Below, piece after piece: positions 1,527 to 56,740 of a stretch of DNA of 64,000 bases (positions are counted from its first letter, which is position 1; every line of letters starts with the position of its first letter). The notes under the pieces were generated by a model. The model searched no databases, was not told where the DNA came from, and saw only the letters and a program-made list of their open reading frames with translations. The stretch is from Actinomycetes bacterium. Lineage in GTDB: Bacteria > Actinomycetota > Acidimicrobiia > Acidimicrobiales > Acidimicrobilacustridaceae. Location of the stretch: positions 1-64,000 of the forward strand of contig JAKOVR010000021.1 in NCBI GenBank assembly GCA_029782025.1, in the 5' to 3' direction. The position numbers and the translations under genes were made by a program.

Positions 1527-2698
1527 CGGGATCCCCCTGGTGCGGGTCGGCGGCGGGCCGCGCCCCGCAGCACCGCGGCCAGGGCGGCGGCGTTGTCGTC
1601 CCACGAGTGGGTCGGCGGCCACGGGGCCCGCTCCGGCGGATCGGCCCACAGCGCCGCGATGGCGGCGGTCCAGGCCGCCACGTCCCCGACGGGGGCGTAG
1701 GCGGCGCGGTCGCCGGCCACCTCGCGGTGGGCGGCGATGTCGGAGAGCAGGAGCGGGCAGCCGAGCAGACCGCCTTCCTGGGGCGTGAGGGGGAAGGCCT
1801 CGAGGCTCGAGGCGCTGGCCAGGAGCCCGGCCCGCTCGACCAGCCACCGGAGCTCGGCCCGGTCGCCGACAGGGCCGAGGTGGTGGAAGGGTGCGGCGGC
1901 GGACGCCGCCACGCCGGCCAGCTCCCGGGCGCGGTCGGGTTCGATGGCGCCGCAAATCACCAGCGGGGCGGGGGCGGCCGAGGCCCGGGTCGCCGCCGCC
2001 CACGCCGCCACCAGCAGGTCGAGGCCCTTGTGGCGGTAGTCGTTGGCCACGGCCAGGACGTAGCCCCCGGCGTCGAGGTCGGGCGTGGCCGGTGGTGTCC
2101 ACCGCTCGGCCGGGCACCGCCCCTCGGCCGGCCACACCGGGCCCCCGCCGGGGATCACGACCGCGCGTGCGGCCACGGCCGGCATCGACGCCTCGGCCAA
2201 CGTCCGCAGCGCCTCGGAGATCAGGACGACGTCGTCGACGACCGCCATGCTCCGCACCACCAGCGCCTGACGGAGCCGCTTGGCCCGGCGCAGGTTGGCC
2301 CGCCGCCAGGCGCGGTCCTGCAGGTAGTTGGCGTCCTGCACCGCCAGCACCGTCGCGACCGGGAGCCGGCGCAACGGGCCGAGGTTGGCGGGGAAGTAGG
2401 CGACGTCGAAGCCGCCGAGCACCTTCGGGCCGGGGAGCACCGTCTGCTCCCAGAGGTAGCGGTGAGCGACGGAGCGCACACCGGTGTCGCGCACCGGCCA
2501 AGGCTGGGCGTCGGCGAGCGCGGCCGCGTTCCAGGGCGAGGCCAGCACCTCCCCGTCGACCCCGGGTTGCCGGGCGAGCGCGGCGAGCTGGCTCCCGATG
2601 AAGGTGAGCCCTCCGCCCAGACGGGCCGACATGGCGTCGACCAGCACCCGGATCGGCGCGCGGTCGTCGGTGCTCGGTGGGGTCGGCGGTTCTGGCAT
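1523..2698 (-). CDS. Glycosyltransferase family 4
   Basis: 391 residues. First gene of the minus-strand polysaccharide operon; its TGA overlaps the start of the next GT4 gene. The N-terminal domain starts IRVLVDAMSARLGGGLTFIGSQLAAL, the glycine-rich loop of GT-B enzymes. The C-terminal domain has the donor-binding pattern VANDYRHKGLDLLVAAW and SSLEAFPLTPQEGGLLGCPLLLSD, where the glutamates of the EX7E motif sit. A TAGGCT -10-like hexamer lies at 2732-2737, about 30 nt upstream of the ATG. Two different GT4 enzymes in tandem suggest consecutive sugar additions to one lipid-linked glycan; this is inference from context. Confidence 0.85.
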   Translation of the reverse strand: MPEPPTPPSTDDRAPIRVLVDAMSARLGGGLTFIGSQLAALARQPGVDGEVLASPWNAAALADAQPWPVRDTGVRSVAHRYLWEQTVLPGPKVLGGFDVAYFPANLGPLRRLPVATVLAVQDANYLQDRAWRRANLRRAKRLRQALVVRSMAVVDDVVLISEALRTLAEASMPAVAARAVVIPGGGPVWPAEGRCPAERWTPPATPDLDAGGYVLAVANDYRHKGLDLLVAAWAAATRASAAPAPLVICGAIEPDRARELAGVAASAAAPFHHLGPVGDRAELRWLVERAGLLASASSLEAFPLTPQEGGLLGCPLLLSDIAAHREVAGDRAAYAPVGDVAAWTAAIAALWADPPERAPWPPTHSWDDNAAALAAVLRGAARRRPAPGGSR

Positions 2699-2731
2699 CG
2701 GCGCGGGCGCCCGAGCGGGGCGGGCCCGGTC

Positions 2732-2737
2732 AGCCTA
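2732..2737 (-). promoter_or_regulatory. Putative -10 element of the glycosyltransferase operon
   Basis: TAGGCT read on the minus strand, overlapping the stop codon of the upstream membrane protein gene and about 30 nt before the ATG at 2698. No convincing -35 was identified. The same hexamer precedes the transporter gene at 27036-27041. Confidence 0.35.
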
Positions 2738-3454
2738 GGACGGAGCGGCACCGGGACCGGCGTCACTGGGGACCGGCGGGGCCATGGCCGCCTCGACCTC
2801 GGCCACGTAGCGGGCCAGCCTCGATCGGTGACGCCGGGCCAGCACGGCCCACCAGGCCAGCAGCGCCGAGCCGATGGCCGCCGGGACGAGGCCCTGGACC
2901 AGGTAGGCGATGTTGACGCGGGTGGGGAGGTCGTCGGGGTCGAGGATGCGGTCGCCGGCGGCACCGACGAAAAGCCGGAGCGGCTCCCCCGCCCGCACCG
3001 GCACGCAGGCGGTGCGTTCCACGGCGAAGCTCCCCTCCGCCATCGCCGGGAGCCAGTCGCACCCCGGCACTGCCGCCCCCTCGGGCGCGGGCAGCGGCGT
3101 CGCCCGCCCGGGAAGGGGTGGGCGAACGTCGGGATGGGCGACGACCACGGACCGATCGTGGTCGACCGGTCCCAGCACCTGCACGCTCCCGCCCTGCTTC
3201 GCCGACCGGGGCACGACCGGCAGGTCGTCGAGCTGGACCCGCCGGAGCGTGACGGCGGACAGCACCAGCCACCCACCCACCAGCACCAGGACGACGCCGA
3301 GCCCTGCCACGAACGGGCTCGGGCCGGACCCGGGGGCGGCGAACCGGTTGCGGACCACCGGGCCGCCACCGGCGAAGGCGTTGATGACGTCGATCGAGGA
3401 CGGGACATCGGGGTCGACCGCGAACGGGGATCGGCGGCGACGGCGGGCAGCCAT
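2735..3454 (-). CDS. Two-helix membrane protein of unknown function
   Basis: 239 residues. A basic N-terminus (MAARRRRR) is followed by one membrane helix at about 48-68 (FVAGLGVVLVLVGGWLVLSAV), an extracytoplasmic domain of roughly 110 residues with two cysteines (PGCDW and TACVP) that could form a disulfide, and a second helix near 188-208 (LVQGLVPAAIGSALLAWWAVLA) with a short cytoplasmic tail. The layout resembles DUF3592-type proteins, but I cannot assign a family with confidence. TACCGT at 3463-3468 lies 8 nt before the ATG, consistent with a leaderless transcript. It faces away from the acyl-CoA dehydrogenase operon starting at 3536. Confidence 0.7.
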   Translation of the reverse strand: MAARRRRRSPFAVDPDVPSSIDVINAFAGGGPVVRNRFAAPGSGPSPFVAGLGVVLVLVGGWLVLSAVTLRRVQLDDLPVVPRSAKQGGSVQVLGPVDHDRSVVVAHPDVRPPLPGRATPLPAPEGAAVPGCDWLPAMAEGSFAVERTACVPVRAGEPLRLFVGAAGDRILDPDDLPTRVNIAYLVQGLVPAAIGSALLAWWAVLARRHRSRLARYVAEVEAAMAPPVPSDAGPGAAPS

Positions 3455-3497
3455 GGCCGGGAACGGTACGGGATGTGCACGCAGCCGGCTCGGCCCC

Positions 3498-3519
3498 TAC
3501 AATCTGACGGTCCGTCAGA
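3498..3519 (+). promoter_or_regulatory. Promoter with overlapping 17-bp palindromic operator
   Basis: TACAAT at 3498-3503 is a good -10 hexamer. Starting on its last base, 3503-3519 reads TCTGACGGTCCGTCAGA, a perfect inverted repeat (8 + 1 + 8). The position over the expected transcription start, about 20-30 nt before the ATG at 3536, is where a dimeric TetR-family repressor would block initiation. TetR-type repressors commonly control lipid catabolic operons in actinobacteria; no regulator gene is present in this window. Confidence 0.65.
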
Positions 3520-3535
3520 AATGGCCGGAGGCCCC

Positions 3536-4756
3536 ATGGATTTCGACTTCACGCCCGAGCAGACCGCCTTCCTCGCCGAGGTCGAGGCCTTCCTCGACGA
3601 GCACGACGACCCCGAGATCTTCGACGTGACCCGCGAGAACATGGCGCAGATCGTCGACACCCCCAAGCGCCGGGCCTTCATGAAGGAGCTCGGCCACAAG
3701 GGCTGGCTGGGGCTCACCTGGCCCAAGGAGTACGGCGGGTCCGAGGGCGAGGGCGTCTACGAGTTCCTCCTGAACGAAGCGCTCGCCGGGCGGGGCGGAC
3801 CCCAGATCGGCAAGGGCGTGGGGATCATCGGCAAGACGCTCATCGCCCACGGGAGCGACTTCCTCAAGCAGAAGTTCCTGCCCATGATCCTCGAGAACGA
3901 CGTGGAGTTCGCCGTCGGCTACTCGGAGCCCAACGCCGGCTCCGACGCCGCGTCGATGAAGCTCAAGGCCGAGCGGGCCCACGACAAGGACGGCAACCCG
4001 GGCTGGATGCTCAACGGCCAGAAGACCTGGACCACCTCGGCCCACTTCGCCGAGTGGTACTGGCTCGGCACCCGCACCGACCCGGAGAACAAGCACCAGG
4101 GCATCACGCTGATGCTCGTGCCCCTCGACCAGCCCGGCGTGGAGATCCGGGCCATCTGGACCATGGGCGACGAGCGCACCAACGAGGTGTGGATCGACAA
4201 CGTGTTCGTGCCCGACGAGTACGTCGTCGGCGAGGTCAACAAGGGCTTCCAGTACATCAGCGAGGCGCTCGACCTCGAGCGCTTCACCATGTTCACGTTC
4301 TCGCCCATCAAGCAGCGCCTCGACCTGCTCACCGACTACGTGAAGGAGACGGTGCGCGATGGGTCGCCCCTGAAGGACGACCCGGTCGTGCGGGCCCGGA
4401 TCGCCCAGCTGCACACGGAGGCCGAGGTGGCCCGCATGCTCGGGCTGCGGTTCGTGGCCGAGACGGTGAAGGCCGAGGAGGCCACCAAGGCCGGCCACCG
4501 GGTCCCGCCCCCCACGCTCCAGTCGAGCGAGTACAAGCTCTACGCCACCGAGTACTCGCGCCGGCTCGCCAATGCCTCGATGGATCTCGCCGGGGCCGGA
4601 GCGCAGCTCCGGGTGAAGACGCCGGAGGCGCCGATGGAGGGCCGGGCCGAGAGCACCTACCGCTACACCGTCATCGACACGATCGGCGGCGGCGCATCGG
4701 AGATCCAGAAGAACATCATCGCCCGTCGTGGCCTCGGCCTCCCCAAGAACTTCTGA
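3536..4756 (+). CDS. Acyl-CoA dehydrogenase (first of two in the operon)
   Basis: 406 residues. Expected to be an FAD flavoprotein that introduces an alpha,beta double bond into an acyl-CoA thioester. The helical N-terminal domain begins MDFDFTPEQTAFLAEVEAFL; the middle beta domain contains the flavin-contacting run YSEPNAGSDAASMKLKA and QKTWTTSAHFAEW; the C-terminal helical domain ends GGGASEIQKNIIARRGLGLP. The ATG at 3536 was chosen because GGAG lies 5 nt upstream; an in-frame ATG at 3521 is too close to the operator. No obvious catalytic glutamate is seen near the C-terminal glycine motif, as in subunits of heteromeric actinobacterial acyl-CoA dehydrogenases. The 7055 gene may encode its partner. 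The substrate is unknown. Confidence 0.9.
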   Translation: MDFDFTPEQTAFLAEVEAFLDEHDDPEIFDVTRENMAQIVDTPKRRAFMKELGHKGWLGLTWPKEYGGSEGEGVYEFLLNEALAGRGGPQIGKGVGIIGKTLIAHGSDFLKQKFLPMILENDVEFAVGYSEPNAGSDAASMKLKAERAHDKDGNPGWMLNGQKTWTTSAHFAEWYWLGTRTDPENKHQGITLMLVPLDQPGVEIRAIWTMGDERTNEVWIDNVFVPDEYVVGEVNKGFQYISEALDLERFTMFTFSPIKQRLDLLTDYVKETVRDGSPLKDDPVVRARIAQLHTEAEVARMLGLRFVAETVKAEEATKAGHRVPPPTLQSSEYKLYATEYSRRLANASMDLAGAGAQLRVKTPEAPMEGRAESTYRYTVIDTIGGGASEIQKNIIARRGLGLPKNF

Positions 4757-49755: not shown

Positions 49756-50673
49756 TCACCCGAGCCGTTCGAGCGCGGCGAGGACGGTCGCCGCGACCCA
49801 GTCCGGCCGGTTCACGATCTGGTCCCATGTGAACCGGAGGAACTGCCAGCCCAACAGCGCGAGCTCGTTCTGTCGGACACGGTCGTCCTGGAACCGCGAC
49901 CAGTCCAGGTGCGATGCCCAGCCGTCCACCTCGATGGCGAGCTTCGGGTCCGGATACGCGAAGTCGATCCTCCGGGTCGAACCGTCCGGCATCCGGATCC
50001 GGAGTTGAAACACCGGTTGGGGAACGGCGTAGCGCTCGCACAACTCGGCGAAGAGCACTTCGGGACGGGAATCCGGCAGCTGCGATCCCAGCACCCGGGC
50101 GTCGATCACGTTCAGCAGGCGCTTCGGGCCCTTCCACTTGGGGTTGTCGAGCCGTTCGCACGTTCGACGGATCAGCTCCACGCTCATCCGTCGCGTGAGC
50201 AATGCGGATTCGACCACCCGCGGGAGGAGGTCGACCTCGACGACTTCGGCGAGGTCGACGAGCGTCTTCAACGGCGACGTTGCTGGAAACCCTCTCGCCT
50301 CCCAGATCACGTTCGGGTCGATCTGTCGCGGCCGATGGACGACGACCGCGGTGGTCCGCGACGACGCCGTGCGGATCACGGTGATCTCCACCACGGGAGC
50401 CTCCCCCCAGTCGAAGCCCCAGAGGTAGGCCGCAGACCGGTGCGAGGCCACGGCGAACCTCCCATTGGTGATCAGCGCGGCCGAGAGCTCGACCTCGAAC
50501 GTGGTGCCGACACCGAGCCCCCGGTAGACGCCGTCCGCGACCGGCACGAGTGCGCCGTAGCCCACGGCACGATTGACCTCCGCCCGGGTGAGCCCGGCGT
50601 CGAGGAGCTGGCGCATCCCGGCAACCCCGTGCTGTCGGGATGCGATGGCGTCGAAGGTCTCGAGCACGTGCAT
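49756..50673 (-). CDS. AbiEi-like N-terminal domain fused to DUF559 (PD-(D/E)xK-like) protein
   Basis: 305 residues from ATG at 50673; TATGTT at 50680-50685 lies 6 nt upstream, so the start is probably leaderless. An upstream GTG at 50709 is possible but not favoured. Residues 1-60 (FDAIASRQHGVAGMRQLLDAGLTRAEVNRAVGYGALVPVADGVYRG) form a winged-helix AbiEi-antitoxin-like domain. The C-terminus (RRIDFAYPDPKLAIEVDGWASH ... RFQDDRVRQNELALLGWQFLRFTWDQI) is the DUF559/Vsr-like nuclease fold with D and E-x-D residues. Such proteins are abundant in actinobacteria and their role is uncertain. Codon bias is somewhat more relaxed than in its neighbours. Confidence 0.85.
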   Translation of the reverse strand: MHVLETFDAIASRQHGVAGMRQLLDAGLTRAEVNRAVGYGALVPVADGVYRGLGVGTTFEVELSAALITNGRFAVASHRSAAYLWGFDWGEAPVVEITVIRTASSRTTAVVVHRPRQIDPNVIWEARGFPATSPLKTLVDLAEVVEVDLLPRVVESALLTRRMSVELIRRTCERLDNPKWKGPKRLLNVIDARVLGSQLPDSRPEVLFAELCERYAVPQPVFQLRIRMPDGSTRRIDFAYPDPKLAIEVDGWASHLDWSRFQDDRVRQNELALLGWQFLRFTWDQIVNRPDWVAATVLAALERLG

Positions 50674-50743
50674 GCTCGAAACATACTGTGATTTACTGAA
50701 AGAGCACAACCCACCTCGTCGGCCCTTCCTTGTCGCGCCGTGT

Positions 50744-50791
50744 CCCGTGGGTGCGAATTGTTGGCATTAGCGAAAAATTCGCACCCACGGG
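50744..50791. repeat. 48-bp palindrome downstream of leuA
   Basis: Arms CCCGTGGGTGCGAATT and its perfect complement (16 bp each) around a 16-nt A/T-rich loop. It begins 21 nt after the leuA stop and may end the leuA transcript. It shares the GGGTGCG...CGCACCC core with copies R1-R4 but not the rest. At about 50% G+C in the loop, it stands out from the surrounding DNA. Confidence 0.8.
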
Positions 50792-50812
50792 GAAACGGAC
50801 GGAACGAGGGGG

Positions 50813-52396
50813 TCAGACGCCGTCGAGGTGGCCGGGGCGGTTGGCCTTGTCGTCGGCGAGCTCGGCGCCGGAGTCCTTGATCCGGTAGATCCGGTTGATG
50901 GCGTTGAGGAAGGCCCGGGCCGACGCCTCGACCACGTCGGTCGACAGGCCCCGCCCCGGCATCGACACGCCGTCGACGGCGAAGCGCAGCGCCACGTCGG
51001 CCAGGGCGTCGACCCCGCCGGTGACCGACGTGACGGCGTAGTCGGTGAGCTGGCCGTCGACCCCGGTCAGCTGACGGATGGCGTTGCACGCCGCCTCGAC
51101 CATGCCGTCGCCGGTGGCGGTGGCCTCCAGCTTCTCGCCGTCGTGGTCGAGCACGATCCGGCACGTCGGTGTCGAGCTCGAGCCGCCGTGGCTGTCGCAG
51201 CTCACGAGCTGGTAGCGGTACCGCACGGTGTCGCCGACCTCCTCGGCCACGAGGGCCTCGAGGTCCTCCTCGGTGAGCTGCACCTTGCGGTCGGCCAGCT
51301 CCTTGAACCGGGTGAACACCTGGTTCAGGGCGTCGCCGTGAAGTTCGTAGCCCATCTTCTTCATCGTGTCGGCGAAGGCGTGCCGGCCGGAGTGCTTGCC
51401 CAGCACGATCTTGCTCTCGCCGGCGCCCACGGCCGCCGGATCCATGATCTCGTAGGTCTCGCGCTTGGAGAGCACCCCGTGCTGATGGATGCCGCTCTCG
51501 TGGGCGAAGGCGTTGCGACCCACGACCGCCTTGTTGTACTGGACCGGATAGCCGGTGAGCCGGCTCACGAGGCGTGAGGCCCGCCCCAGCTCCTCGGCCC
51601 GGATGCCGGTGTCGACGCCGTCGAAGTAGTCGGCCCGCGTGCGCAGGGCCATCACCACCTCTTCCATCGCGGCGTTGCCGGCCCGTTCGCCGATGCCGTT
51701 GATCGTGCACTCGACCTGACGGGCACCGGCCTTCACCGCGGCCAGCGAGTTGGCGACGGCCAGACCGAGGTCGTCGTGGCAGTGGGTCGAGATCACGTAG
51801 TCGCCGGTGACCGCCTGGCGCACGGCCTGCAGGCGGGCGGCGTACTCCTCGGGGATCCCGTAGCCGACGGTGTCGGGGATGTTCAGCGTGGTGGCGCCGT
51901 TGTCGACCGCGATCTGGAGCACCTCGCACATGAACCCGAAGTCGGAGCGGGACGCGTCCTCCGGCGAGAACTCGACGTCGTCGGTGTACTGGCGGGCGTG
52001 GCCCACGGCGCGGCCGGCCTCGGTCTTCACCTGGTCCGGCGTCATGCGCAGCTTGTTCTGCATGTGGATCTCGCTGGTGGCGATGAACACGTGGATGCGC
52101 CGGGCCTCGGCGTCCTGGATCGCTTCCCAGCACCGGTCGATGTCGGCCAGCGCGGTGCGGGACAGGCCGCAGATCACCGGTCCCCGCACGGCGCGGGCGA
52201 TGGCCTGCACGGACTCGAAGTCGCCCTGGCTGGCCACGGGGAACCCGGCCTCGATCACGTCGACCCCGAGGCGGGCGAGCTGCTCGGCGATCTCGACCTT
52301 CTCGCCCTGGTCGAGCGAGATGCCCGGCGACTGCTCGCCGTCGCGGAGGGTGGTATCGAAGATGATCACCCGGTTCGGATCACGTTGCGTGCCCAT
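50813..52396 (-). CDS. leuA: 2-isopropylmalate synthase LeuA
   Basis: 527 residues. First committed step of leucine synthesis: acetyl-CoA plus 2-oxoisovalerate gives 2-isopropylmalate. The HMGL-like barrel begins VIIFDTTLRDGEQSPGISL, with metal ligands His205 and His207 in STHCHDDLGLAVANS and GIGERAGNAAMEEV. NAFAHESGIHQHGVL and GKHSGRHAF mark the linker. The C-terminal LeuA regulatory domain, where leucine feedback acts, is complete. AAAGG lies 7 nt before the ATG. The 200-nt leader encodes a leucine-rich peptide and a terminator, so expression appears attenuated by leucine supply. Confidence 0.95.
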   Translation of the reverse strand: MGTQRDPNRVIIFDTTLRDGEQSPGISLDQGEKVEIAEQLARLGVDVIEAGFPVASQGDFESVQAIARAVRGPVICGLSRTALADIDRCWEAIQDAEARRIHVFIATSEIHMQNKLRMTPDQVKTEAGRAVGHARQYTDDVEFSPEDASRSDFGFMCEVLQIAVDNGATTLNIPDTVGYGIPEEYAARLQAVRQAVTGDYVISTHCHDDLGLAVANSLAAVKAGARQVECTINGIGERAGNAAMEEVVMALRTRADYFDGVDTGIRAEELGRASRLVSRLTGYPVQYNKAVVGRNAFAHESGIHQHGVLSKRETYEIMDPAAVGAGESKIVLGKHSGRHAFADTMKKMGYELHGDALNQVFTRFKELADRKVQLTEEDLEALVAEEVGDTVRYRYQLVSCDSHGGSSSTPTCRIVLDHDGEKLEATATGDGMVEAACNAIRQLTGVDGQLTDYAVTSVTGGVDALADVALRFAVDGVSMPGRGLSTDVVEASARAFLNAINRIYRIKDSGAELADDKANRPGHLDGV

Positions 52397-52492
52397 GGTG
52401 TGGCCTTTCTCGTGGGGTTGGGACTGCGGGACAAGGGGACTGCGACAGACGAACTGCGGCCAGGGGCGGGCGGACCGCCCCCGGAAACGAAA

Positions 52493-52523
52493 GAACCTCC
52501 TGGCCCGGGGGCGCAGGAGGTTC
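52493..52523 (-). terminator. leuA attenuator (intrinsic terminator)
   Basis: On the RNA strand GAACCTCCTG pairs perfectly with CAGGAGGTTC around an 11-nt C/G loop, followed directly by TTTCGTTTCC. It lies about 25 nt after the leader peptide stop and about 95 nt before leuA. The 3' arm can alternatively pair with ACCTCCCTG in the leader coding region (one bulge), a candidate antiterminator pairing. Confidence 0.75.
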
Positions 52524-52550
52524 GGCGAGCACCGATATGTGGTGCTCGCC
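52524..52550 (-). promoter_or_regulatory. leuA leader hairpin (possible ribosome pause structure)
   Basis: GGCGAGCACC and GGTGCTCGCC form a perfect 10-bp stem with a 7-nt A/T-rich loop, starting on the last base of the leader stop codon and ending where the terminator begins. Confidence 0.7.
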
Positions 52551-52600
52551 TACGTGAGGAGAAGAAGGGTCTGCGGCAGGGAGGTGCGCATAGCTGACAT
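52550..52600 (-). CDS. leuL: leu operon leader peptide
   Basis: A 16-residue frame, MSAMRTSLPQTLLLLT, ending in TAG, with four consecutive leucine codons (CTT CTT CTC CTC) just before the stop and a fifth Leu earlier. CTT is otherwise rare in this genome segment, which sharpens sensitivity to charged leucine tRNA. TAGCGT at 52609-52614 lies 8 nt before the ATG, consistent with a leaderless mRNA as described for the leuA leader of streptomycetes. It is followed by a hairpin and an intrinsic terminator, then leuA. Ribosome stalling at the Leu codons should change folding and allow read-through into leuA. Confidence 0.85.
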   Translation of the reverse strand: MSAMRTSLPQTLLLLT

Positions 52601-52608
52601 CAGGAAAC

Positions 52609-52614
52609 ACGCTA
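52609..52614 (-). promoter_or_regulatory. Promoter -10 of the leuL-leuA transcript
   Basis: TAGCGT on the minus strand, 8 nt upstream of the leader ATG. TTGGGG lies 17 nt further upstream as a possible -35. Confidence 0.5.
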
Positions 52615-52676
52615 CCCGACCCGCCGTCAAGCCCCAACCCGTTTGCGCCGCGGCGCGGGTGCCACCCCGGTCGGGG

Positions 52677-54245
52677 TCAGCCCAGCTCGATGACGTGGAC
52701 GGAGTGGATCGACGGATCGGCCACGAGGGCGTCGCGCACCTCACCCGACACCACGTCACCGGTCGAGAGCACCATCATCGCCGCCGAGCCGTCGGCCGAC
52801 CGGCCCACGTGCAGGTCGGCGATGTTCACGCCGGCGGCGCCGAGGATGGACCCCACGGTGCCGATCACGCCGGGCGTGTCGTCGTTGCGGACGACCAGCA
52901 TGTGGGCCGCGGGCGGGACGTCGACCTTGTGGTCGTCGACCATCACCACCCGCATCTCGTTGTTGACCCCGGCGAGGGTGGCGGCCACGGCGTGACCCGC
53001 CCCGCGCACCGTGATGACGTTGACGTAGTCGTGGCTGGTGGTCGTGGACGTCTCCCGCACCTCGGTGCCGTGGCCCTCGGCCAGCTTCGGGGCGTTGACG
53101 AACGACACCGGCTCGTCGGTGATCCGGCCGAAGTAGCCCTTGAGCATCGACAGCGTGAGGATGCGGGTGTCGTAGCCGCCGATCTGCCCCTCGTAGGTGA
53201 CCTCGATCGGCCCCGCGCTGCCGGCGGCGAGCGAGGCGTAGAAGGCCCCGAGCCGCTCGGCCAGCGGCAGGTACGGCCGCACCGTCTCGCTGGCCTCGGC
53301 CGCGCTCACGTTGACGGCGAAGGGCACGAACTCGCCGGCGAGGGCCAGCTCCACCATCTCGGCGATGGTCAGCCCCGCCTTGTCCTGGGCTTCCACCGTG
53401 CTGGCCCCGAGGTGCGGCGTCACCACGACCTCGTCGAGCTCGAAGAGCGGCGACTCGGTGGTTGGCTCCTTGTCGAACACGTCGAGCGCGGCACCGGCGA
53501 CGTGGCCCGACCGGATGGCCGCCGCGAGGTCGGCCTCGTTGACGATGCCACCGCGGGCCACGTTGACGATGCGGATCCCGGCCTTGGCCCGGGCCAGGCG
53601 CTCGGCGTTGAGCAGGTCGACGGTCTCGGGGGTCTTGGCGACGTGGATCGTGACGAAGTCGGCCACGGCCAGCAGCTCGTCGAGCCCCATGAGCTCGACG
53701 CTGATCTGGCGGGCCCGCTCCGGCGACACGAACGGGTCGTAGCCGACGAGCTTCATGCCGAAGGCCAGGGCCCGCTGGGCGACGAGCTTGCCGATCCGGC
53801 CGAGCCCGATGATGCCCAGCGTCTTGTCCGACAGCTCGACGCCCTCCCACTTGCTGCGCTCCCACCGGCCGTCCTTCAGGGCGGCGTGGGCCTGGGGCAC
53901 GTTGCGGGCCTGGGCCATCAGCAGGGCCATGGTGTGTTCGGCGGCCGAGAGGATGTTGCTCTGGGGCGCGTTCACCACCATCACGCCCTGGGCGGTGGCG
54001 GCGGCCACGTCGACGTTGTCGAGCCCGATCCCGGCCCGCCCCACCACCACGAGGTCGGTGCCCGCGGCCAGCACCTCCGCCGTGACCTGCGTGGCCGAGC
54101 GGATGATCAGGGCGTGCGCCCCCCGCACCAGGTCGGGGAGGGAGTCGGCCGTGAAGTCGAGCTGGAGGTCGACCTCGTGGCCGGCCGCCCGCAGGCGGTC
54201 GAGACCGTTGTCGGCGATCTTCTCGGTGACGAGGATGCGGGCCAT
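52677..54245 (-). CDS. serA: D-3-phosphoglycerate dehydrogenase SerA
   Basis: 522 residues from ATG at 54245; the ATG at 54254 has AGG directly against it, so the inner start, 7-9 nt after AGGATG, is preferred. First step of serine synthesis, oxidising 3-phosphoglycerate with NAD. Substrate domain MARILVTEKIADNGLDRL; NAD-binding motif LGIIGLGRIGKLVAQRA; catalytic HLGAST with the Glu/Arg of VARGGIVNEADL. The long form is present: an ASB intervening domain (about 310-440) and a C-terminal ACT domain (MLVVRNDDTPGVIGTVGSILGAAGVNIADLHVGR) for serine feedback. serC lies 2.5 kb away on the other strand. Confidence 0.95.
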   Translation of the reverse strand: MARILVTEKIADNGLDRLRAAGHEVDLQLDFTADSLPDLVRGAHALIIRSATQVTAEVLAAGTDLVVVGRAGIGLDNVDVAAATAQGVMVVNAPQSNILSAAEHTMALLMAQARNVPQAHAALKDGRWERSKWEGVELSDKTLGIIGLGRIGKLVAQRALAFGMKLVGYDPFVSPERARQISVELMGLDELLAVADFVTIHVAKTPETVDLLNAERLARAKAGIRIVNVARGGIVNEADLAAAIRSGHVAGAALDVFDKEPTTESPLFELDEVVVTPHLGASTVEAQDKAGLTIAEMVELALAGEFVPFAVNVSAAEASETVRPYLPLAERLGAFYASLAAGSAGPIEVTYEGQIGGYDTRILTLSMLKGYFGRITDEPVSFVNAPKLAEGHGTEVRETSTTTSHDYVNVITVRGAGHAVAATLAGVNNEMRVVMVDDHKVDVPPAAHMLVVRNDDTPGVIGTVGSILGAAGVNIADLHVGRSADGSAAMMVLSTGDVVSGEVRDALVADPSIHSVHVIELG

Positions 54246-54297
54246 GCCGCCCATCCTGACCGGCCCGCCCGGACGCGAGCCAACCCGTGACGGCGCC

Positions 54298-54735
54298 TCA
54301 GCAGCGCGTCGTCATGATGACGCTCACCGGCACGTCCGGGCCTGACGGGCAGTCGCCCCCGAGCACCTTCACGGTGAGCTGGAAGGCCAGGTACGGGATC
54401 ACGGCCAGCGCGACCACGAAGGCCAGCACGATGGTCCAGGCCGGCCGCCGGAAGCGGGCGGTGTGCGCCCCGAGCCCCGTCCCGGGCCCGTCACCGTCAC
54501 CTTCGACCCCCACGGCCGTGGCCCCCTCCTCGGGGCGCTCGGCCGGGAGGCCGAGCAGCTCGGCGGCGCGGGCCCGGTCGGTGGGGACCACCCACATCGT
54601 CCAGGAATCCGGCCCGTCCTCGATCAGCTCGGTCCCGATCCCGGCCCCGAGGAGCTCCCGGGCGCCGGCCTCGGCCACGGACCGGGAGATGCCGGCGACC
54701 AGGACGGCGAGCCCGACGGTGCGATCACTGCCCAT
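54298..54735 (-). CDS. Small membrane protein with N-terminal DUF2007-like domain
   Basis: 145 residues. The first 60 residues (VGLAVLVAGISRSVAEAGARELLGAGIGTELIEDGPDSWTMWVVPTDRARAAELL) resemble DUF2007 'putative signal transducing' ferredoxin-like domains. A charged linker and one membrane helix (WTIVLAFVVALAVIPYLAFQLTVKVL) follow, with a short external end containing two Cys. It overlaps the stop of the S9 peptidase gene by 11 nt, so it is the downstream member of that unit. No function assigned. Confidence 0.7.
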   Translation of the reverse strand: MGSDRTVGLAVLVAGISRSVAEAGARELLGAGIGTELIEDGPDSWTMWVVPTDRARAAELLGLPAERPEEGATAVGVEGDGDGPGTGLGAHTARFRRPAWTIVLAFVVALAVIPYLAFQLTVKVLGGDCPSGPDVPVSVIMTTRC

Positions 54736-56740
54736 GACTGCCCTCGTTCTCGATCGTGACGGGCTCGACCCCCGCCGGGGGGTCGAACCCGAACACCCTG
54801 GCCAGAAAGTAGTGCTCGGACTCGAGGACGCGCTCGATGGTGGCCGCCTGGCGGAACCCGTGCTCCTCCCCCTCGAAGGCCAGGTAGGCGAACGGGAGGC
54901 CCCGCCGCCGGAGGGCGGCCACGATCTGCTCCGACTGCGACGGCGGGACCACCTTGTCGTCGAGCCCCTGGAACAGGATCACCGGGCAGTTGAGCCCGTC
55001 GAGGTGGTGGATCGGCGACCGGGCCCGGTACCGCTCGGCCGCCTCGGGGTAGGGCCCGACGAGCCGGTCGAGGTAGCGGGCCTCGAACTTGTGGGTGTCG
55101 GTGGCCAGCGTTTCGAGGTCGGCCACGCCGTAGAGGCACGATCCGGCCCGGAAGGTGGCGTGAAAGGCGAGGGCGCACAGGGTGGTGAATCCGCCGGCGC
55201 TGCCCCCCTTGATGGCCAGGCGGTCGGGGTCGACCTCGCCAGCGGCGGCGAGGTGGCGGGCACAAGCGATGCAGTCGTCGACGTCGGCGATGCCCCACGT
55301 GCCGGCCAGCGCGTCGCGGTAGGCGCGGCCGTAGCCCGTGGATCCGCGGTAGTTGACGTCGGCGACGGCGAACCCGCGGCTGGTCCAGTACTGGATCGAG
55401 AGCTGCAGCAGGGGCCGCGCCGCCGAGGTGGGCCCACCGTGGCTGAGCACCAGCAGCGGCGGCCGCTCCGCCGGGTCGGGGGCGCCGGGGACGTCGGGGT
55501 TGGTCGGGCGGTAGAAGAGCGCGTGCGCCTCGGTGACGCCGGTCCCGAGATCGGTGGTCGGGAACGTGATGTGCTCGGGGACGCTGAACCACGCCGGCCC
55601 GAGCCCGAGGTCGCGGGCGGGCCGGTGCACGGTGAGCTCGCCGCCGGGGCCGACCTCGGCCACCACCGCCTCGGCGGTGAAGCTGGCCCCGATGAGGGCG
55701 GCCGTGCCCCGACCGGTGGCGACGACGCCGTCCACCGCGGTGAGCTCGGGTGCAGCGCACCAATCGCGCCCGTCCCGGCGACGGACGGCGCCGACCAGCC
55801 GGGGCTCGGTCGCCTCCGGCGCCCAGGCGTACCACGACTGGCCGAACACCCACTGGGCCTGGGCCTGCTCCCCGACCCCGACACCGGTGTCGTCCCGGCT
55901 CCCGAGACCAGTGACGGCCACGCCGTCGACCACGAGCTCCCAGCTGCCTCCTTCGTCGGTGACCCAGGCGAGCTGTCCCGCCGGCGTCCACGACGGTTGG
56001 GCGATCGACACCCCGGCGCCGCCGGCCACCCGCACCGCCCCGGTGACCGAGGGAGCGGTGGCAGCGCCCGAGGTCAGGTCGGCGACCCAGAGCTCGCTCT
56101 CGTCCCAGGGCATGTTCGGGTGGGACCACTGGAGCCAGCTCAGGCGGGTGCCGTCCGGGCTGACCCGCGGGTGGGAGGTGAAGTCGGGGCCGGAGACCAC
56201 CACCACCGGGTCGCCCGACCCGTCGAGCGGCATGGCCACGATCTCGTTGACCGGCTCGGTGGTGCCGGGCCGTCCGTGCTCCTCGCGGACGCACACGGCC
56301 CACCGGCCATCGGGCGTGAACGACAGGTCGATGTACCGCAGCGCCCCCGGTTCGACCGGGTCCGGGGTGATCGCCACGGGCTCGGCCTGGTCGCGCTCGC
56401 CCGGTCGGTCGATGCGGTACAACCGCTGGTCGGCGGTGTTGGCGAAGACCAGCGCACCATGGCCGACCCAGAACGAGGTGCCGCCGTACTCGTGCACCCG
56501 GGACCGGGCCGAGTAGCCGTCCGGCAGCAGGTCGGACGCGGCGGACGGTGGGGCGTCGAGGGCCTTGACCACCACCTGGGTGCGGCCCCGCTCGGTCGGG
56601 CGCAGCTCCGACCACCAGATCCGGCCGTCGGGGGACACGGCCGGGCCACCGAGCGAGACCGACGCCCGGACCACGACGCCGGCCGTGATGGGCGTGGGCC
56701 AGGTGCCGTACGGCAATGCCTTTTCCGGCGACGGAGCCAT
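54725..56740 (-). CDS. S9 family prolyl-oligopeptidase-like serine peptidase
   Basis: 671 residues. An N-terminal beta-propeller of about 400 residues (SVSLGGPAVSPDGRIWWSELRPTERGR, FTPDGRWAVCVREEHG, HPRVSPDGTRLSWLQWSHP) covers an alpha/beta-hydrolase domain. The catalytic triad is Ser514 in KGGSAGGF, Asp594 or Asp595 in GLDDKVVPP and His627 in EEHGFRQ. It would cleave short peptides, like acylaminoacyl- or dipeptidyl-peptidases. No signal peptide. CACTAT at 56748-56753, 7 nt before the ATG, overlaps the serC -10 on the other strand. Confidence 0.9.
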   Translation of the reverse strand: MAPSPEKALPYGTWPTPITAGVVVRASVSLGGPAVSPDGRIWWSELRPTERGRTQVVVKALDAPPSAASDLLPDGYSARSRVHEYGGTSFWVGHGALVFANTADQRLYRIDRPGERDQAEPVAITPDPVEPGALRYIDLSFTPDGRWAVCVREEHGRPGTTEPVNEIVAMPLDGSGDPVVVVSGPDFTSHPRVSPDGTRLSWLQWSHPNMPWDESELWVADLTSGAATAPSVTGAVRVAGGAGVSIAQPSWTPAGQLAWVTDEGGSWELVVDGVAVTGLGSRDDTGVGVGEQAQAQWVFGQSWYAWAPEATEPRLVGAVRRRDGRDWCAAPELTAVDGVVATGRGTAALIGASFTAEAVVAEVGPGGELTVHRPARDLGLGPAWFSVPEHITFPTTDLGTGVTEAHALFYRPTNPDVPGAPDPAERPPLLVLSHGGPTSAARPLLQLSIQYWTSRGFAVADVNYRGSTGYGRAYRDALAGTWGIADVDDCIACARHLAAAGEVDPDRLAIKGGSAGGFTTLCALAFHATFRAGSCLYGVADLETLATDTHKFEARYLDRLVGPYPEAAERYRARSPIHHLDGLNCPVILFQGLDDKVVPPSQSEQIVAALRRRGLPFAYLAFEGEEHGFRQAATIERVLESEHYFLARVFGFDPPAGVEPVTIENEGSHGQ

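Follow-up and report, generated by a model that had tools for sequence, protein, structure and literature searches.

A putative leucine-attenuator element was located in the interval that separates serA from leuA, on the minus strand. Coordinates refer to the whole 64,000-nt stretch of DNA that was analysed (the window), and the class sampled for relatives is the Acidimicrobiia, which includes the window's organism. Along the minus strand, the order is promoter, leader open reading frame (ORF), hairpin A, terminator hairpin T with a U-rich tract, and leuA. The leader, the two hairpins and the gene named in the original prediction were all located, with leuA starting at 52396 on the minus strand. 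The features are:

52677–54254: serA (assigned by TIGR01327)
52625–52630, minus strand: −35 element TTGACG (TTGAC-like hexamer in relatives)
52609–52614, minus strand: TAGCGT, a weaker alternative −10 element (17-nt spacing from TTGGGG)
52602–52607, minus strand: TTTCCT, probable −10 element, tentative, 17 nt after TTGACG (spacing, comparison with relatives)
52550–52591, minus strand: leader ORF MRTSLPQTLLLLT-stop, 13 codons, leaderless or nearly so (LLL-X-stop conservation; start from the −35 distance)
52556–52567, minus strand: run of Leu codons CTT CTT CTC CTC, the putative sensor (CTT enrichment)
52524–52550, minus strand: hairpin A, GGCGAGCACC-ACATATC-GGTGCTCGCC, perfect 10 bp (covariation, swap test, footprint model)
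52493–52523, minus strand: hairpin T, predicted terminator stem, GAACCTCCTG-(C)-GCC ... GGC-CAGGAGGTTC (covariation, swap test, terminator scan)
52513, minus strand: unpaired pyrimidine of a TGYG motif in the ascending arm of T, possible RNA polymerase pause (conservation)
52485–52492, minus strand: U-rich tract of the terminator, TTTCGTTT (sequence; U-rich in aligned loci)
52404–52411, minus strand: Shine-Dalgarno-like sequence of leuA, GAGAAAGG (sequence)
50813–52396, minus strand: leuA, 2-isopropylmalate synthase, 527 aa, the gene proposed to be regulated (NF002086, TIGR00973)

The LeuA protein of the window scores 733 bits with the NCBIfam model NF002086 (cut-off 532) and 687 bits with TIGR00973, leuA_bact (cut-off 599). 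A purine-rich Shine-Dalgarno (SD) sequence precedes leuA in 79 loci. The single-strand fold of the leader is markedly more stable than that of shuffled sequences (z = −6.0). When the whole window was searched with Rfam, no family, Leu_leader (RF00512) included, matched the element at gathering level, and a search of the region 50000–55000 at E values up to 5 returned none at the leuA leader element. Microrna and small-RNA matches near 50719–50816 and 52871–52984 fell under their gathering scores and were set aside as irrelevant. A long, nearly perfect inverted repeat found directly 3′ of leuA (50744–50792), which attracts spurious Rfam microRNA matches, is probably the transcription terminator of this gene.

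A LeuA search of 61 relatives found leuA in 39 genomes. The first alignment comprised 38 non-identical leaders from relatives, named contigs (Microthrixaceae, Acidimicrobiales) and other families, and reading by eye showed in all 38 an ORF with the LLL-X-stop ending, followed by hairpin A at its stop codon with T adjoining. A covariance model found a single copy of the element in the window's own genome and, in the class sample, matched 277 of the 394 genomes, from 152 of the 196 genera; these class counts are lower bounds, because at least two of ten unmatched genomes read by eye (L252 and L254) carry the leader. In a sample of the phylum, 66 of 396 genomes matched, mostly members of the class. 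The downstream gene encodes an isopropylmalate synthase in all 98 loci with enough sequence, 52 of the enzymes being nearest to the bacterial type of the window and 46 to the yeast/actinobacterial type, which is about 25–35% identical to the window enzyme over aligned stretches and whose representatives were confirmed as TIGR00970. At least two genomes (G006 and G013) carry two copies of the element, the second before the other leuA type. The leader thus follows function and not one gene lineage, as seen from the two enzyme families and these second copies. In some members of the order (L249–L251 and L255 of family f18, and L257 of family f41), the element is absent and leuA has a different leader peptide, M.FLL.LRLL.PAA or similar, ending in LRLL.PAA or LRLIRPAF, with no obvious terminator; this alternative leader may be a LEU element or of a nascent-peptide type.

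The ORF read from the first in-frame ATG (52600–52550, minus strand; peptide MSAMRTSLPQTLLLLT) corresponds to the leaderless 16-codon peptide first described for this locus. The ORF is present, and a TTGAC-like −35 hexamer found 28–35 nt 5′ of the leader start codon in 80 of the 99 loci of the class leaves space for a −10 element and none for a leader, so that the ORF is predicted to be leaderless or nearly so. Its start is probably the second ATG (52591) instead of the first (52600), which gives 13 aa, the most frequent leader length among the loci. The sensing end is identical for either start, since both ATGs are in the same frame. The hexamer TAGCGT, initially taken as the promoter, is probably off by a few bases: the class-wide −35 distance favours TTGACG, and TAGCGT paired with TTGGGG is the weaker alternative. 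The −10 element of the window is weak, TTTCCT being a poor match to the consensus, and a promoter scan of the window's leader found no promoter.

The coding end of the leader is its most constant part. All 99 distinct aligned loci have an ORF ending in LLL-X-stop, in the window LLLLT-stop with the TAG codon at 52552–52550, and the four consecutive Leu codons originally noted are indeed CTT CTT CTC CTC (52567–52556). Third positions in the Leu run vary freely across the 99 loci: CTC, CTT, CTG and CTA occur 52, 26, 18 and 3 times at the first Leu codon (Leu1), and CTT, CTC and CTG 64, 31 and 4 times at the third (Leu3). The rarity claimed for CTT in the genome holds in four window genes, where it accounts for 1 of 171 Leu codons, and in the leaders it makes up 43% of the Leu codons, as against 6.3% in the fragments of leuA that follow them (an odds ratio of 11, with p about 1e-48 in an unweighted Fisher test, a nominal value since the loci are related). 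The invariant LLL-X-stop with free third positions, together with the CTT enrichment, indicates that the leader peptide is translated and is the sensor, and strongly supports the proposal that it responds to charged Leu-tRNA. A constitutive terminator with a Leu-rich ORF that is there by chance is barely credible: this reading is contradicted by the same codon pattern, by the fixed distance of the stop from hairpin A (−1 to +1 across loci) and by the isopropylmalate synthase context. TAG is the stop codon in 80 of 100 leaders despite the G+C-rich genomes, a bias that is explained only in part by its G belonging to hairpin A.

Both hairpins were found where they had been proposed. Hairpin A is a perfect 10-bp stem at the leader stop (52550–52524), its first base being the G of the TAG codon (52550). 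The perfect 10-bp stem attributed to the terminator was confirmed at 52523–52493 as the lower stem of T (GAACCTCCTG/CAGGAGGTTC), to which an unpaired C (52513) and three further pairs at the top must be added. The covariation analysis of relatives proposed with the original prediction supports both hairpins, with 98.3% of the alignment cells able to pair and two-sided changes in 12 of 21 pairs compared with 4.2 in shuffles. In a swap test, in which the segments of each locus were paired with their own partners or with partners from other loci, own partners were better for the two arms of A (A1:A2, z −18.6) and of T (T1:T2, z −13.6). The covarying stem and the U-rich tract predict an intrinsic terminator between the leader and leuA. 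Hairpins A and T abut without overlap, as had been noticed in the window, where no unpaired base separates them, and the arrangement is strongly supported by its conservation across the class: they share no base in 96 of 99 loci and one base in 3 of 99, where T is extended outward into A2, and zero unpaired bases lie between them in 51 of 99. Translation through both hairpins in a different frame (pyrBI-like or by frameshift) was considered and rejected; conserved coding through them is unlikely because loops and spacers differ in length by arbitrary numbers of bases. A third strong hairpin, CCGGGGGCGG-TCCG-CCCGCCCCTGG, follows the terminator U tract directly in the window (52484–52460) and was not seen in the relatives inspected by eye.

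A competing antiterminator was sought by applying the swap test to the Leu run, A1, the loop of A, A2 and the spacer, each against T1, the apex of T, T2 and the tail. None of the segment pairs other than those forming A and T covaries, A2:T1, A1:T1 and the Leu run with T1 or T2 included. The Leu run:T2 pairing is energetically favourable (−10.3), yet it shows no covariation and would act in the wrong sense. With a ribosome stalled at Leu1, before T2 is made, T1 is predicted to have an upstream partner with a probability of 0.5% on average, and above 50% in 0 of 99 loci. A test based on variation is blind to a pairing that never varies, and folding found no strong invariant cross-pairing. The antiterminator suggested earlier, in which ACCTCCCTG (52585–52577) pairs with the 3′ arm of the terminator, CAGGAGGT, did not survive the comparison: it has no counterpart in relatives, the segment is unconserved and would lie under a ribosome that had stalled in the Leu run, and neither arm of the terminator covaries with any segment upstream. 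A classical third hairpin that competes by sharing a terminator arm was not found in these alignments, and neither was the sharing of bases between antiterminator and terminator that marks ribosome-mediated attenuators.

A classical 1:2 / 2:3 / 3:4 attenuator would be one in which stalling at the last Leu codon opens A and A2 pairs with T1, as GGUGC:GCGCC in the window. This pairing is the best fold of the window before T2 is made, with the ribosome at Leu3 or at the stop (−6.9 kcal/mol). However, the A2:T1 segments show no covariation (z +0.6), and at Leu3 just 5 of the 99 loci give their pairing a probability above 50%. The pairing is much weaker than T, and it would be expected with a ribosome at the stop as well, which is the wrong sense. 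We consider a classical attenuator improbable.

The position of the ribosome relative to hairpin A was modelled with a footprint of 26 nt, as used for the Mycobacterium tuberculosis ilvB1 leader. In this model, a ribosome at Leu1 leaves A with 7 or more pairs in all 99 loci, and one at the second Leu codon does so in 93 of them. With the ribosome at Leu3, roughly half of A remains; at the next codon A is lost, and at the stop it has no more than 4 pairs in any of the 99 loci. Since A forms while the ribosome occupies the first Leu codons and is masked once the stop is reached, it would report starvation, and its modelled behaviour is in the sense expected of an antiterminator. Whichever ribosome state is modelled, 94 or more of the 99 loci are predicted to form T.

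Very probably, the element gauges the supply of leucine and works as an on/off switch. Our main reading, to which we assign a probability of roughly 80%, is that leuA is controlled by ribosome-mediated transcription attenuation in response to charged Leu-tRNA. Transcription would start at or just 5′ of the leader start codon, and a 70S ribosome would translate the peptide of about 13 codons ending in LLLLT. With enough Leu-tRNA, the ribosome would arrive at the stop and mask A, T would form and transcription would end before leuA; under leucine starvation, a ribosome stalled on the early Leu codons would leave A fully formed, and the polymerase would read into leuA. In its favour are the conserved leader codons, the two covarying hairpins and the gene that follows, and also the similar layouts before ilvB and leuS and the M. 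tuberculosis and C. glutamicum systems described below. Against this reading stand the lack of a conserved antiterminator, the prediction of T in all modelled states, the half-formed A at Leu3 and the weak −10 element of the window.

How T would be kept open is a more tentative matter. Hairpin A may be an antiterminator that shares no bases with T, A and the stalled ribosome together holding T open, a proposal to which we would give somewhat less than an even chance. Hairpin A joins T with zero to few bases between them and would tether the stalled ribosome to the base of T. As A abuts T and the ribosome stands at the other foot of A, both would be pulled against the exit channel of the polymerase, and T would fail to close there in time, through a steric or kinetic block. 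Such a block is ranked as the likeliest mechanism, at the same rather low confidence, ahead of some further factor or of an A2:T1 pairing that would be weak and confined to certain lineages.

The ascending arm of T contains an unpaired pyrimidine in 87 of 99 loci, with G next to it in nearly all, and, counted from the end of A, this position falls on base 11 or 12 in 75 of 99 loci and on bases 10 to 13 in 93 of 99. When the spacing and the Y-G step were compared with published pause rules (PMC12288461), the arrangement of a hairpin-stabilised pause, a hairpin 10–13 nt upstream of a Y-G step, was found at the level of sequence. This suggests that A also sets a pause in the ascending arm of T, which, near 52513, would delay the polymerase with T still incomplete and give the ribosome time to arrive at the Leu codons. 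Hairpin A could instead be a pause hairpin only, coupling ribosome and polymerase, with the terminator decision left to a protein, Rho or the coupling state. The spacing of 11–12 nt and the Y-G motif agree with this as well (PMC12288461), but the spacing from A to the pause is partly dictated by stem length, and the prevention of T in starvation would be left unexplained. We know of no factor that would decide terminator T, and regard the pause-only reading as unlikely.

The nearest proven systems to the proposed attenuator are the ilvB attenuators of Mycobacterium and Corynebacterium. The M. tuberculosis ilvB1NC leader is also actinobacterial and combines a short leader peptide, branched-chain codons near its stop and an intrinsic terminator with a hairpin that is free when the ribosome stalls and masked at the stop (PMC13236596); changing its LVVI codons to alanine codons abolishes induction (PMC13236596). 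It differs in sensing Leu, Val and Ile, in controlling ilvB and in its 166-nt leader, whereas the leuA element would sense, by its codons, leucine only. In the scheme of its authors, the antiterminator and the terminator exclude each other, whereas A and T of the leuA element share no bases. The Corynebacterium ilvBNC and ilvB-II leaders share with the leuA element a near-leaderless peptide and adjacent, hardly overlapping hairpins, and the upstream hairpin of ilvBNC is thought to cause a pause, a further likeness (PMC11857589, PMC10272879). In C. glutamicum ilvBNC, antiterminator and terminator are adjacent with only a GCC in common (PMC11857589), which can join either hairpin, while A and T do not overlap; gene and codons also differ, and ilvB-II is confined to Corynebacterium. 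The leuA hairpins are therefore adjacent like those of the Corynebacterium 'fast' attenuators, but lack the short overlap at their boundary. The enteric leu leader (Rfam Leu_leader) and the trp and his leaders are alike in their leader peptide, rare Leu codons, intrinsic terminator and pause-type first hairpin, whereas the leuA element is leaderless, has no antiterminator sharing a terminator arm and no Rfam match. The earlier view that the fold is not the standard enteric one is upheld by the abutting hairpins and by the missing shared arm.

The literature describes ilvB and trp attenuation in Actinobacteria and the LEU element of leuA (PMC1262725); our search, which covered few subscription papers, found no description of this leuA attenuator. 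The LEU element, described for leuA of most other Actinobacteria, likewise places a leader peptide with a Leu run before leuA (PMC1262725), and translation control of this kind, in which the Leu run pairs with the leuA SD and the ribosome frees it, is a conceivable reading of the locus. It is nevertheless very unlikely. Own and swapped partners of the Leu run:SD pairing show no coevolution over 79 loci (z +1.5), and 63–206 nt, terminator included, separate the leader stop from the leuA start, while the LEU element consists of a pseudoknot and a Leu-run:SD stem with no terminator, unlike the two simple hairpins found here. According to the account of Craster (1999) in PMC1262725, changes of the regulatory codons of the Streptomyces coelicolor ilvB leader are without effect, a result that we count against the attenuator reading, and leader mutants of S. 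coelicolor ilvB and leuA are described there as behaving non-classically.

Related elements occur before other genes. In the window's own genome, a parallel attenuator-like leader (L244, G000:C132) lies 5′ of ilvB (2246–3949, minus strand), with the peptide MSPRTTTTLVVLT-stop, a hairpin GCGCACGC/GCGTGCGC at the stop, then a terminator GGCCTCCC/GGGAGGTC and a U-rich tail. Outside the class, the leuA model matches the two-hairpin layout before leuS (L224, L227) and ilvB (L226 and most of L228–L238), and the codons of these leaders suit the product (SLLLT, LVLIT, LVVLVT). At L241, a pair of hairpin and terminator resembling the model, seen by eye, precedes an aminotransferase-like gene without a Leu leader peptide. 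It is possible, and we put this forward with some doubt, that these leaders represent a type of attenuator without a base-competing antiterminator, in which an abutting hairpin with a built-in pause site blocks the terminator mechanically or kinetically, and which serves both leuA families, ilvB and leuS across the Actinomycetota.

If the main reading holds, leucine attenuation would be the rule across a large and mostly uncultured class, kept even with the other isopropylmalate synthase family. The roughly 100 aligned natural variants without a textbook antiterminator would make a testable case for an old puzzle, that of the attenuator-like leaders of Actinobacteria whose mutants behave non-classically.
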